From Acidilobaceae archaeon (lineage in GTDB: Archaea > Thermoproteota > Thermoprotei_A > Sulfolobales > Acidilobaceae), in contig JALWTO010000040.1 of NCBI GenBank assembly GCA_027082825.1, forward strand, positions 1 to 64,000: 64,000 nt of DNA. Reading direction: 5' to 3'. Shown here in pieces: positions 11,335-54,305 of this stretch (its first letter is position 1; every line of letters starts with the position of its first letter). Position numbers and translations under genes: made by a program. The notes under the pieces are model-generated. The model was not told the origin of the DNA. It saw nothing but the letters and a program-made list of their open reading frames with translations, and made no database searches.

Positions 11335-11442
11335 TGGCGGGCCCGCCGGGATTTGAACCCGGGACTTCCGCTCCCATAGGCCAGGGCCTTCGGGACCTAC
11401 GGGTTAAGAGCCCGCCGCTCTACCAGGCTGAGCTACGGGCCC
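11335..11442 (-). tRNA. tRNA-Lys(CTT) with ~31-nt intron in the variable loop; CCA encoded
   Basis: GGGCCCGTAGCTCAGCCTGGTAGAGCGGCGGGCTCTTAACCCGTAGGTC[...]CCGGGTTCAAATCCCGGCGGGCCCGCCA; anticodon loop CTCTTAA; removing 31 nt gives a 74-nt cloverleaf. Confidence 0.88.
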
Positions 11443-28499: not shown

Positions 28500-28660
28500 A
28501 TCAGCGATCCCTGGTTCCTGATACTTGCTTCTTGATAGGCAGGGAGGGGCTAGGGAAACCCTGACGAGCTGACCTACGGAATAACCTTGTTGAGGTGAAC
28601 TGTTAAGGAAATGTTGAATGAACAAGCATATAAGAATTTGAGATCCCTTAACGAGTTCTA
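28500..28660 (+). ncRNA. Candidate structured RNA
   Basis: Locally GC-rich; complementary pairs TCCCTG(28508)/CAGGGA(28540), AGGG-AAA-CCCT, GTTAAGG(28602)/CCTTAAC(28646); TATA-like taatataag/ttataaac upstream; no plausible ORF. Confidence 0.25.
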
Positions 28661-50502: not shown

Positions 50503-51003
50503 TTGATGGAGAAGAAATATCTAAAGAGAGCACTGATCGGCCTTGCTCTGGTGGTTTTTGCATTAGCTATAGCGATGGTTGACAGTTCTCCTAGACTAGA
50601 GTCATCAAAAAACATGACCCTAACGTTAAACATTTATACAAAGAAGGAGATCAACCTGGGAACTTCTGAAAATGAGATAAGGTTGGTTGTCAAGAACTCT
50701 AACTCTACACAGACCCTTGTGTTTCTAAATACTGAAAATAATGCCAGGTATTCTGTTGTTTCTGAAAAAGGCCATGAACTCTGGATACCATCAGGCGGAA
50801 GCTATTATGTAACCTGCTCGACCTGCAATAACATTTCTGTCAATGTTAGAATAGGAGCCGAGATCTATAAGATCGGAGGATCATTTATAGTTCTCATTTC
50901 AGCATTAGTAATTGGACTGGTTGGTGGAATTTATGCCATGATGAGCATAGTTGCACACTTTATGGAATTAGGTCTTAGAAAAAGGACAGGGGGCGAGGTA
51001 TGA
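50503..51003 (+). CDS. Two-TM extracytoplasmic small protein (166 aa)
   Basis: N- and C-terminal TM segments flanking a beta-rich domain with CSTC; overlaps next gene. Confidence 0.75.
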   Translation: MMEKKYLKRALIGLALVVFALAIAMVDSSPRLESSKNMTLTLNIYTKKEINLGTSENEIRLVVKNSNSTQTLVFLNTENNARYSVVSEKGHELWIPSGGSYYVTCSTCNNISVNVRIGAEIYKIGGSFIVLISALVIGLVGGIYAMMSIVAHFMELGLRKRTGGEV

Positions 51004-51572
51004 GAAGATTTAAAAAAACAGAGAAGATATATATCATAGCTTCTCCAGCATGGTCAGTTAGGCTTGAAGGCATGAACAATAACGTGTGTGTGGATTCCTT
51101 TTTCATAACAAAGGTAAGTGATCCGGTCAGAAGGATACTTTTTGTATATCCTAACAATTACTGTAAGCCATATCCAGATTCTGGTGCTTACCTCATCGAA
51201 GCCAACGATGATTCAAGAAGGATCCTTGAGCTTTTAGGCACAAGCTGTGAGGAGGCTGAAAAAAGGGTTAGAACTATTCCAAAAAGAAGGTTCATATCAT
51301 TTGGTTTACCCATAGCTCCTTCGAAAGAGGAAAAGATGAGAGTTGAGGCCCATTATGCTAGCGAACTTTGCTCCTCAGTATTTAATGGTGATCCAAGGAC
51401 TAAGCCTCTACTTGAATCCAGAAAAATGTACATAAACTACATAATAGGTGAAAAGCTGAGAGAGGGACCCTCTGCCAGAATAGTTAAGATATCCTCTTTA
51501 GATAAAGGGATTCTAGAAGCAGTCACAGATGTGATAAATGAGATTAGAAGAAGACACCTATACAAGACATGA
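51000..51572 (+). CDS. Hypothetical soluble protein (190 aa), coupled to the upstream gene
   Basis: 4-nt overlap with 50503..51003; four or more Cys; family not recognised. Confidence 0.72.
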   Translation: MRRFKKTEKIYIIASPAWSVRLEGMNNNVCVDSFFITKVSDPVRRILFVYPNNYCKPYPDSGAYLIEANDDSRRILELLGTSCEEAEKRVRTIPKRRFISFGLPIAPSKEEKMRVEAHYASELCSSVFNGDPRTKPLLESRKMYINYIIGEKLREGPSARIVKISSLDKGILEAVTDVINEIRRRHLYKT

Positions 51573-51576
51573 TGAG

Positions 51577-51765
51577 CTCGGCAGAGCCGAGGTTTAACCT
51601 ATGACGAAGGTCTTGAGTACTGAGCTAACCGTTCCCTGCCTACGGCTCCAGCTCCATGGCCCCAATGAAGTCTCTTTCAACCATGTAGCCGTCTACAAGG
51701 CCGAGCCTGAGGCGTAGCTTGTAAGCCCTGACTTTCAAGTGGCGATGGCCCCCTGTTGCTTTTAC
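51577..51765 (-). ncRNA. GC-rich structured-RNA candidate (alternative: degraded TnpB 3' end plus hairpin)
   Basis: Nested complementary stems on minus strand (TTACAAG/CTTGTAG, ACGGCT/AGCCGT, CATGG/CCATG, TGAA/TTCA, CTCGGC-TCT-GCCGAG); ATTTTAAGG ~25 nt upstream of GGGGGCC; no long ORF. Confidence 0.4.
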
Positions 51766-51794
51766 TCAGAGAGTACCTTAAAATCATGATCGAG

Positions 51795-54305
51795 CTAGAA
51801 GTATTTTCTATAGTGACTGCTCTTTATATGCAATGGGTGTTCTCCAGCCATTTTGTATATCGATAGCTTTGTTAAGTCCTCAATCAGAAACCAGATGATG
51901 CAATAAAGCCATATGAAACCTGCCATCCAGGCTGGTATGGAAACCACTATTCCAAGACCATAAATTGCAACCAAAGTTGCAGCAAGCTTTGTAAATATGG
52001 CTGTTATGAGCAACCACTTACCAGGCATTATTGAATAGAAAGCCTTCTTAGTTCTTGTGACAAATATGGTTAAATGACCAGCAACAGCAAGCTTAAGGAA
52101 CACAAACGTTTGTATCACAGCAAGCTGGCTTACTGGGCTTAAATGGAAGTAATGCAACGCTATCCATAGAAGGAGGAAGGTCTCTATAACACCTACTGTT
52201 CCAAGCGCTGTCGATAAGGATAGAATTAACGGCATGTTCCACCTTTCAGGTTTCTCACTTATCTTCACCTTATCATAAGCTATTGTAAGTATGGGCAAGT
52301 CGTTAAGTAATGCTAATAGTATTATCTCTACAGCCGTAATCGGATAGAAGTTAAATGCGATCATTGTGAGTGTTATAAAGAACAGAACCCTTATAGTCTC
52401 GGTTATTCTATAAACTATATAGCTATACATTCTTCTGAATATCTTTCTGGCCTCCAAAAGAGCATCTTTGATAGCCGAAATACCTGAGGCAAGCATAACT
52501 ATGTCAGCAGCTGCTCTAGCAGCATCTGTTGCATTAGAAACTGCTATCCCAACATTGGCTTTCTTAAGGGCTGGAGCATCGTTTACACCGTCTCCTGTCA
52601 TAGCTACTGTATGTCCACGTTTTTGTAGCATATCAACAATCATATATTTATGTTCAGGAAATACTTGAGCAAATCCATCTGCTTCTTCTATAAACCTTTC
52701 GGCATCAGATGGGTGAAGATTCTTTATCTCACCAATTGTATGGATCCTACTACCTATTCTGAGCTTTCTGGCTATCTGTTCTGCTATTGCTTTGTGATCA
52801 CCAGTTATCATCTTAACATGAATGCCCATTTTCTTAAGAAAACTTATGGTTTCAGCAGCATCATCTCTAGGTGGATCGTAGAGAGGTATTATTCCAATAT
52901 ATTCCCATTTACTTAAGTTACCATCAACAGTTTTCCCAACCCCTATTGTACGATAGCCTTTTCTAGCATAACTCTCCACAATATCTAGAACCTTTTCTCT
53001 AAGGGCTTCATCTGCACCAACAAGATCCAGAATTATCTGAGGAGCTCCCTTAGTCACCTTAAACTTTCTACCCTTGGGATCTTCAATTACAGCCTCGGTT
53101 CTCTTTATTATAGGATCGAAAGGTGTAAACTTGATTGTTTTGAATAGCTCAACTTTGTCCCTAGCATTATACTTTTCTAATGACCTAAGTACTGCAAGAT
53201 CTATAGGATCCTTATCTTCCTCTCTTGAGGCTAATGCAGCATAAAGAATTACATCCAAAGCAGTTAGTCTAGAGTTTATAGGAACCGCATCGGCTATGGT
53301 GAGTTGATTTTTGGTAAGAGTTCCAGTCTTATCAGCACAAAGGATGTCAACACCAGCCATCTCCTCGATTGCTGTAAGCTTTCTTACGATGGCCTGTCTC
53401 TTAGCTAGATCGTAAGCTCCTATAGCCATAGTTATGGATAGTACTGCGGGCATGGCCGCTGGTATGGCTGCGACAGTCAAGACCAGAGCAAATCTAATAA
53501 GCTCAAGAGCCCTCATGCCTCTATGTAGTTCTACTATAACCATTATTGATGTCAAAAATATCGTTAAAAGAATAAGAAAGTCCCCTATTCTCACTATTAG
53601 CTTCTGATACTTACTTATTGTTTTGGCTTTTTCAACAAGTTGTACAGTTTTGCCAAAATAAGTATTTAACCCTGTTGCCACCACAACACCAGTCATTTCA
53701 CCTCTCTTGATAAGGCTGCCCGAATATGCAATGTCTCCCATATGTTTCTCAACAGGTATTGATTCGCCAGTAAGAACTGATTCGTCAGTAAGAAGATAAT
53801 CTCCATCAATGAGCTTTACATCAGCAGGAACTATATCACCGATCCTAAGTCGAATTATGTCGCCAGGAACCAGATCACGTGCAGGTATGATCTTCCACTT
53901 TCCGTCTCTAAACACCCTAGCTTTTTGACTTAACTTCTGCCTTAGGAACTCCATTATGTTTTCTGCCTTATTTTCTTGCCAGAACCCTATAACTCCATTT
54001 ATAAAAAGCATAGAGATTATTATCCAGAAATCAGCCCAATGGTGTATTATAGCCGAGAGTATCGCCGCAACTTCTATCATCCAAGGTATAGGTCCCCAGA
54101 AATAGTTGAGAAATTTAATCAAGGGATGTACTTTTTTCTCGGGAATTTCATTAGGACCGTAAATATTGAGCCTTTTTTTAGCCTCTGCCTCTGAGAGACC
54201 TCTTTGACTATCGACACCTAATTTTCTAAGCACTTCACTCGGAGGAAGTTTCTTAATCTCGTCAGCAGACAAGACTCCTTTTGATGAATCTTGCAGTTTT
54301 TTCAT
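51795..54305 (-). CDS. P-type (type IIIA, H+-ATPase-like) cation-transporting ATPase
   Basis: CADKTGTLTKNQL phosphorylation site, TGESIPV, MTGDGVNDAPALKKANVGIAV. Confidence 0.95.
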   Translation of the reverse strand: MKKLQDSSKGVLSADEIKKLPPSEVLRKLGVDSQRGLSEAEAKKRLNIYGPNEIPEKKVHPLIKFLNYFWGPIPWMIEVAAILSAIIHHWADFWIIISMLFINGVIGFWQENKAENIMEFLRQKLSQKARVFRDGKWKIIPARDLVPGDIIRLRIGDIVPADVKLIDGDYLLTDESVLTGESIPVEKHMGDIAYSGSLIKRGEMTGVVVATGLNTYFGKTVQLVEKAKTISKYQKLIVRIGDFLILLTIFLTSIMVIVELHRGMRALELIRFALVLTVAAIPAAMPAVLSITMAIGAYDLAKRQAIVRKLTAIEEMAGVDILCADKTGTLTKNQLTIADAVPINSRLTALDVILYAALASREEDKDPIDLAVLRSLEKYNARDKVELFKTIKFTPFDPIIKRTEAVIEDPKGRKFKVTKGAPQIILDLVGADEALREKVLDIVESYARKGYRTIGVGKTVDGNLSKWEYIGIIPLYDPPRDDAAETISFLKKMGIHVKMITGDHKAIAEQIARKLRIGSRIHTIGEIKNLHPSDAERFIEEADGFAQVFPEHKYMIVDMLQKRGHTVAMTGDGVNDAPALKKANVGIAVSNATDAARAAADIVMLASGISAIKDALLEARKIFRRMYSYIVYRITETIRVLFFITLTMIAFNFYPITAVEIILLALLNDLPILTIAYDKVKISEKPERWNMPLILSLSTALGTVGVIETFLLLWIALHYFHLSPVSQLAVIQTFVFLKLAVAGHLTIFVTRTKKAFYSIMPGKWLLITAIFTKLAATLVAIYGLGIVVSIPAWMAGFIWLYCIIWFLIEDLTKLSIYKMAGEHPLHIKSSHYRKYF

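Follow-up and report, generated by a model that had tools for sequence, protein, structure and literature searches.

A GC-rich intergenic island of an Acidilobaceae archaeon with a predicted C/D box sRNA gene and adjoining transposon debris

The window analysed here is a stretch of 64,000 nucleotides of an Acidilobaceae archaeon (contig JALWTO010000040.1, forward strand), and the island in question lies between an orf (51000-51572) and the gene of a P-type cation ATPase. The GC content is 56% over 51573-51754 and 39.5% over the whole window, and only 118 of the 63,818 sliding windows of 182 nt reach 56% or more, which confirms that the gap is conspicuously GC-rich, as the original prediction had stated. 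A genome of the same genus (G001) retains the orf (74% identity), the overlap of its stop codon with a small RNA gene, the small RNA gene itself, and the ATPase gene, whose product is 87% identical and encoded in the same place as a conserved neighbour. The coordinates of the features are collected in Table 1.

Table 1. Features of the island, its flanking genes and one further ncRNA copy in the window.
Feature	Position	Strand	Basis or remark
Upstream orf, 190 aa	51000-51572	+	Orf list; no Pfam family
C/D box sRNA (predicted)	51569-51623	+	Model R2, boxes, conservation, sub-threshold Rfam sR3
Box C, ATGATGA	51569-51575	+	Part of sRNA
D′ guide	51574-51586	+	Part of sRNA
Box D′, CCGA	51587-51590	+	Part of sRNA
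Box C′, TGACGA	51602-51607	+	Part of sRNA
D guide	51608-51619	+	Part of sRNA
Pairing segment of D guide, GGUCUUGAGU	51609-51618	+	10 bp with anticodon arm of tRNA-Leu(CAA)
Box D, CTGA	51620-51623	+	Part of sRNA
Putative insertion relative to G001 (approximate)	51624-51790		Comparison of spacing
Putative ncRNA tail (last 23-24 nt), 3′ end GGCAGGGAACGGTT	51627-51649	-	Matches to own copies C18 and C55
TnpB fossil, IS607-type, 33 codons around RuvC motif III	51656-51754	-	DNA identity to four relatives
P-type cation ATPase gene	51795-54305	-	Pfam E1-E2 ATPase
Degenerate solo ncRNA copy	28501-28614	+	Model R1, 43.5 bits, E 5.5e-10

The original prediction had proposed a structured RNA with nested stems on the minus strand. 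The complementary words that it listed are present, but they do not make up one common fold: the folding energy of the minus strand is -61 kcal/mol, while its shuffles average -62.4 (z = +0.31), and the plus strand likewise folds no better than its shuffles (z = -0.30). The Rfam scan of the gap returned no match at gathering scores, and the models of RNase P (including type T) and SRP RNA, both named in the original prediction, returned none at gathering score or at E values up to 10; identification as RNase P or SRP RNA was dropped accordingly. When the DNA of the block was searched for in 60 relatives, it split into pieces with separate histories, so that the complementary words do not belong to one structure. 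A single structured ncRNA of about 190 nt, whether RNase P, SRP-like or unassigned, would suit a GC-rich block in an AT-rich genome that contains some complementary words, but it has hardly any probability left, given folding at the level of shuffled sequence, the lack of an Rfam family on the minus strand, a middle portion of 99 nt that is tnpB coding sequence in other genomes, and pieces that occur separately in relatives while the whole block never does. The single minus-strand RNA was thus ruled out by its folding and by the separate ancestry of its pieces. An RNA gene is nevertheless present according to the analysis below, as a short C/D box guide on the opposite strand.

The plus-strand sRNA and its guide targets

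At the left end of the island, the boxes C (RUGAUGA), D′, C′ and D (CUGA) follow one another in the order of archaeal C/D box sRNAs and are spaced by guides of approximately 10-13 nt. The order is the same in the aligned orthologues, and homologues from about a dozen relatives possess the same boxes and the same D guide. A sequence model (R2) made from twelve sequences, the copy in the window included, scores 55.4 bits here (E 4e-16), its sole match in the window, and finds matches in 121 of the 214 genomes of the order, nearly always as a single copy; within the sRNA, conservation across the order is highest in the D guide. In a permissive Rfam scan, archaeal C/D families matched at the sRNA below their gathering scores, sR3 with 21 bits (E 0.0016) against a gathering score of 41. 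Judged by these features, this stretch of the plus strand is a conserved archaeal C/D box sRNA gene, ordinary in kind. The CTCGGC/GCCGAG hairpin at 51577-51591, which the original prediction had placed as the right end of an IS200/IS605 element, falls inside the sRNA (D′ guide and D′ box) and is missing from several orthologues; since it belongs to the C/D box sRNA, which G001 keeps without the insert, the interpretation as a transposon end was abandoned.

The TGA stop codon of the upstream orf (51570-51572) sits within box C. Overlaps of archaeal C/D box sRNAs with the 3′ ends of genes are common and often involve box C (PMC7994747). Because box C contains the stop codon, the sRNA probably arises when transcription reads through the end of the upstream gene and the transcript is then processed, and, as its family leads one to expect, it would be bound by L7Ae, Nop5 and fibrillarin.

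The genome encodes a tRNA-Leu(CAA) (L111, G000:C21) with the anticodon arm GGGCUCAAGACCCG. The pairing segment of the D guide is complementary to GCUCAAGACC of this arm over 10 bp that include one G-U pair; G51615, the fifth base before box D, faces the wobble base C34, which is the register of the rule of five. Among the 31 tRNAs of the genome, tRNA-Leu(CAA) scores best for the D guide, and 28 of 1000 shuffled guides score equally well against the whole set; given these shuffles and the G-U pair, the choice of target is supported above all by its register and conservation. A tRNA-Leu(CAA)-like arm is present in 51 of 60 genomes, including this one, and guides to the first anticodon position (34) of tRNA-Leu(CAA) are known from Pyrococcus (reviewed in PMC7994747). 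The sRNA of the window reaches no Rfam gathering score. The D guide probably directs one 2′-O-methyl mark onto the wobble base C34 of tRNA-Leu(CAA).

Genes for rRNA are absent from the incomplete assembly, and the 23S and 16S rRNA sequences of relatives were used for the rest of the target search. No match of the D guide to these was better than those of shuffled guides, and rRNA was dropped as its target. A single site of 23S rRNA, homologous in three relatives and near E. coli position 1319 by alignment, can pair with the D′ guide over 12 bp; as 6 to 11 of 200 shuffles equal this match, the 23S site is counted as a possible target that the D′ guide may address. That the sRNA might be a real but orphan guide, with another target or none, is improbable: the assembly lacks rRNA, and the shuffled guides that equal the score against the tRNA set leave some room for it, but an orphan would hardly be expected to have its D guide as the most conserved part across the order and placed exactly in register with C34, a known target of C/D box guides. 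Methylation of C34 is accordingly the function predicted here for the D guide. Elsewhere in the window (11338-11442, minus strand), the Rfam tRNA model recognizes a tRNA gene that ARAGORN missed, probably on account of an intron.

TnpB-derived sequence and an ncRNA tail on the minus strand

The original prediction also offered a competing interpretation, a degraded TnpB of the IS200/IS605 type read from a 41-codon frame on the minus strand (51640-51765). The frame is present, and the resemblance to TnpB is borne out by comparison of DNA with four relatives (88, 85, 84 and 80% identity, the highest over 99 nt of an intact element), by similarity at the protein level (E about 1e-13 to 3e-14), and by 77% amino acid identity over 33 homologous codons throughout which the frame is open; the assignment to IS200/IS605 has to be replaced, as the relatives are of the IS607 type with a serine recombinase. 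In two loci (L002, L003), the matching sequence lies inside an intact tnpB gene (444-448 aa) that adjoins a resolvase-type tnpA, as is characteristic of IS607-type insertion sequences, which consist of a serine recombinase TnpA and TnpB. The likeness of the window to this family consists of the 33 TnpB codons with 80-88% DNA identity to intact members; the difference is that only a fragment is found, about 33 of 444 codons, without tnpA, element ends or the complete RuvC nuclease domain, and that beyond these codons the fossil runs into other sequence. By sequence comparison, therefore, the minus strand from 51754 to 51656 is a dead piece of an IS607-type tnpB gene and not of an IS605-type one. 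The uninterrupted reading frame and its amino acid identity might instead indicate a small functional protein derived from TnpB, but this is very improbable for a frame that is absent from the site in G001, that lacks most of TnpB, and that belongs to a full-length tnpB gene in relatives. A complete IS607-type tnpA-tnpB pair is located on contig 31 of the same genome (L031, G000:C31, 419-2303); its TnpB shares approximately 50% identity with the TnpB to which the fossil is similar.

To the left of the dead tnpB piece is a segment of about 24 nt, overlooked by the original prediction, that corresponds to the 3′ terminus of the members of a dispersed ncRNA family. Its best other match in the genome is on contig 18 (copy C18; 23 of 24 positions, E about 0.002-0.004), and it matches the intact copy on contig C55 at 21 of 23 positions. 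The match on C18 is the 3′ end of a repeat of about 110 nt that resembles an RNA gene, with a TATA-like box upstream and several copies in this and related genomes, and the segment in the window stops where the repeat stops. The full ncRNA model gives only 4.4 bits at this segment (E 0.086), so its identification relies on the local matches to the two copies of the same genome. From these it appears to be the 3′ remnant of a dispersed structured ncRNA that comes from another, TnpB/Cas12f-like element.

The distance from box D to the ATPase gene is about 38 nt in G001 but 171 nt in the window, and the debris is therefore most simply explained as an insertion in the lineage of the window, although a deletion in G001 could mimic one. 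In the inserted debris, the 33 codons from an IS607-type TnpB would have been fused to the terminal 24 nt of the ncRNA of the other element. Alternatively, both pieces might derive from a single IS607-type transposon with GGCAGGGAACGGTT as its right end and an internal deletion extending from about codon 390 of tnpB to that end. The two pieces do share a strand and are ordered as tnpB followed by a right end, and related IS607 elements have right ends (AGGGCGGGGAAACGCT) similar to the tail; however, the tail resembles the dispersed ncRNA of its own genome (23/24) much more closely than it does any IS607 right end seen, and no IS607-type tnpB gene is near any of the ncRNA loci inspected, which makes a single transposon rather unlikely and favours debris of two different elements.

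Taken as a whole, the gap is very probably a composite, with a functional plus-strand C/D box sRNA in its left third and dead minus-strand transposon debris, for which no function was found, in its right two thirds. The island owes its high GC content to the sRNA and the debris.

The dispersed ncRNA and its linked nuclease-like protein

A covariance model (R1) made from nine copies of the ncRNA matches 71 of the 214 genomes of the order, with up to 14 copies per genome. The window contains only the tail and one degenerate solo copy, which is flanked by an aminotransferase-like and a CBS-like orf and has a broken 3′ stem. In an alignment of 50 copies that was fitted to the structure, standard pairs make up 95% of paired cells, two-sided changes occur in 29 of the 32 pairs, and the covariation score is 0.61, compared to 0.20 for shuffled and at most 0.14 for slid alignments. 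In the 3′ helix, GATGA faces GGGA in a kink-turn-like arrangement. RNase P was considered as an identity of the C18 ncRNA and dropped due to the multiple copies and the lack of an Rfam match. Some subfamilies (L084, L094, L098; L161, L170) differ in their apical loops and 3′ ends (AACGGT, AACGCT) and often have no adjacent nuclease gene. The flank at the 3′ end of the C55 ncRNA (L121, 1450-1500) resembles a C/D box sRNA truncated at the boundary of the element (GATGAGG, CCGAG and TGATGA, followed by the element). A general abutment of ncRNA 3′ ends on C/D box genes, suggested by the window and C55, was dropped when none of 58 flanks had a C/D pattern.

Many of the strong matches to R1 are of an RNA encoded divergently beside a gene for a protein of about 375 aa, while others are solo. 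The intact element of this genome (L121, G000:C55, 1501-2786) comprises the divergent ncRNA and a 374-aa Cas12f-fold protein that belongs to no Pfam family. When 84,980 genomes were scanned with the protein, 52 loci were found in records named Desulfurococcales, Pyrodictiaceae, Ignisphaera, Staphylothermus, Caldivirga and Vulcanisaeta, and in one Thermococcus bin. Of the 47 loci whose upstream sequence is long enough, 42 have the ncRNA upstream and divergent, about 45-70 nt from the protein gene, and in 40 of these its distance to the first aligned residue is 33-71 nt. The element with its ncRNA in the Thermococcus genome bin (L159) suggests either transfer between phyla or an error of binning. 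No homologues of the protein were found in plasmids and phages.

Comparison of the protein with Pfam and with PDB sequences yielded no match, and comparison with TnpB and Cas12f models only weak matches below cutoff. At the positions that would correspond to the D, E and D residues of a RuvC nuclease of the TnpB/Cas12 type, D217 and E281 are invariant in ten aligned members, and the third site is mostly D or N and rarely G. Cas12f1 is the nearest structural match (E 2.5e-9, TM 0.57) of the AlphaFold model of the protein (pLDDT 83, pTM 0.71). The profile comparison with IS607 TnpB proteins, from shallow alignments, was not significant.

In several genomes, copies of the element begin to match one another at the final base of the ncRNA or a few bases from it and stop about 50 nt past the stop codon of the protein gene, and the sequence beyond the 3′ end of the ncRNA differs from copy to copy. 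No empty site of the intact C55 element was found in 39 relatives. The structured RNA scaffold ends at the element boundary, next to a flank that might supply a guide; this is the layout to be expected if flanking DNA supplies the guide, and by its layout the ncRNA resembles an OMEGA-like guide RNA. OMEGA systems (TnpB with omega-RNA in IS200/IS605 and IS607 elements; reRNAs of PMC11061315) are similar in the Cas12f/TnpB fold predicted for the protein and in a scaffold that ends at the boundary and is followed by variable flank. In contrast to OMEGA systems, in which the RNA has the same orientation as tnpB and overlaps the 3′ end of that gene, the RNA of the linked element is upstream and divergent, its protein matches no Pfam family and lacks a zinc ribbon, TnpA was not seen, many RNA copies are solo, and the guide role is putative. 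No description of a divergent ncRNA with a Cas12f-fold protein was found in open-licence papers, and this family of linked RNA and nuclease elements, found across many heat-loving archaea, is apparently undescribed. With as much doubt as confidence, it may be proposed that the 24-nt tail derives from such mobile elements, and that their divergent kink-turn-like ncRNA and Cas12f/TnpB-fold protein of about 375 aa without a zinc ribbon constitute an OMEGA-like RNA-guided nuclease, possibly with solo RNA copies acting in trans.

The components of the island itself are of known kinds, a predicted order-wide guide for wobble methylation of a tRNA and the transposon debris adjoining it, and the island is an example of a single GC-rich gap, in an AT-rich archaeon, that is assembled from unrelated pieces lying on both strands. 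Its larger value is as a lead to a compact Cas12f-fold protein with a covarying divergent RNA and solo RNA copies in thermophilic archaea. If the linked element is RNA-guided, it would represent a new architecture among TnpB-type systems and a possible source of small thermostable nucleases, and it would allow a test of whether solo guide RNAs serve the nuclease in trans.
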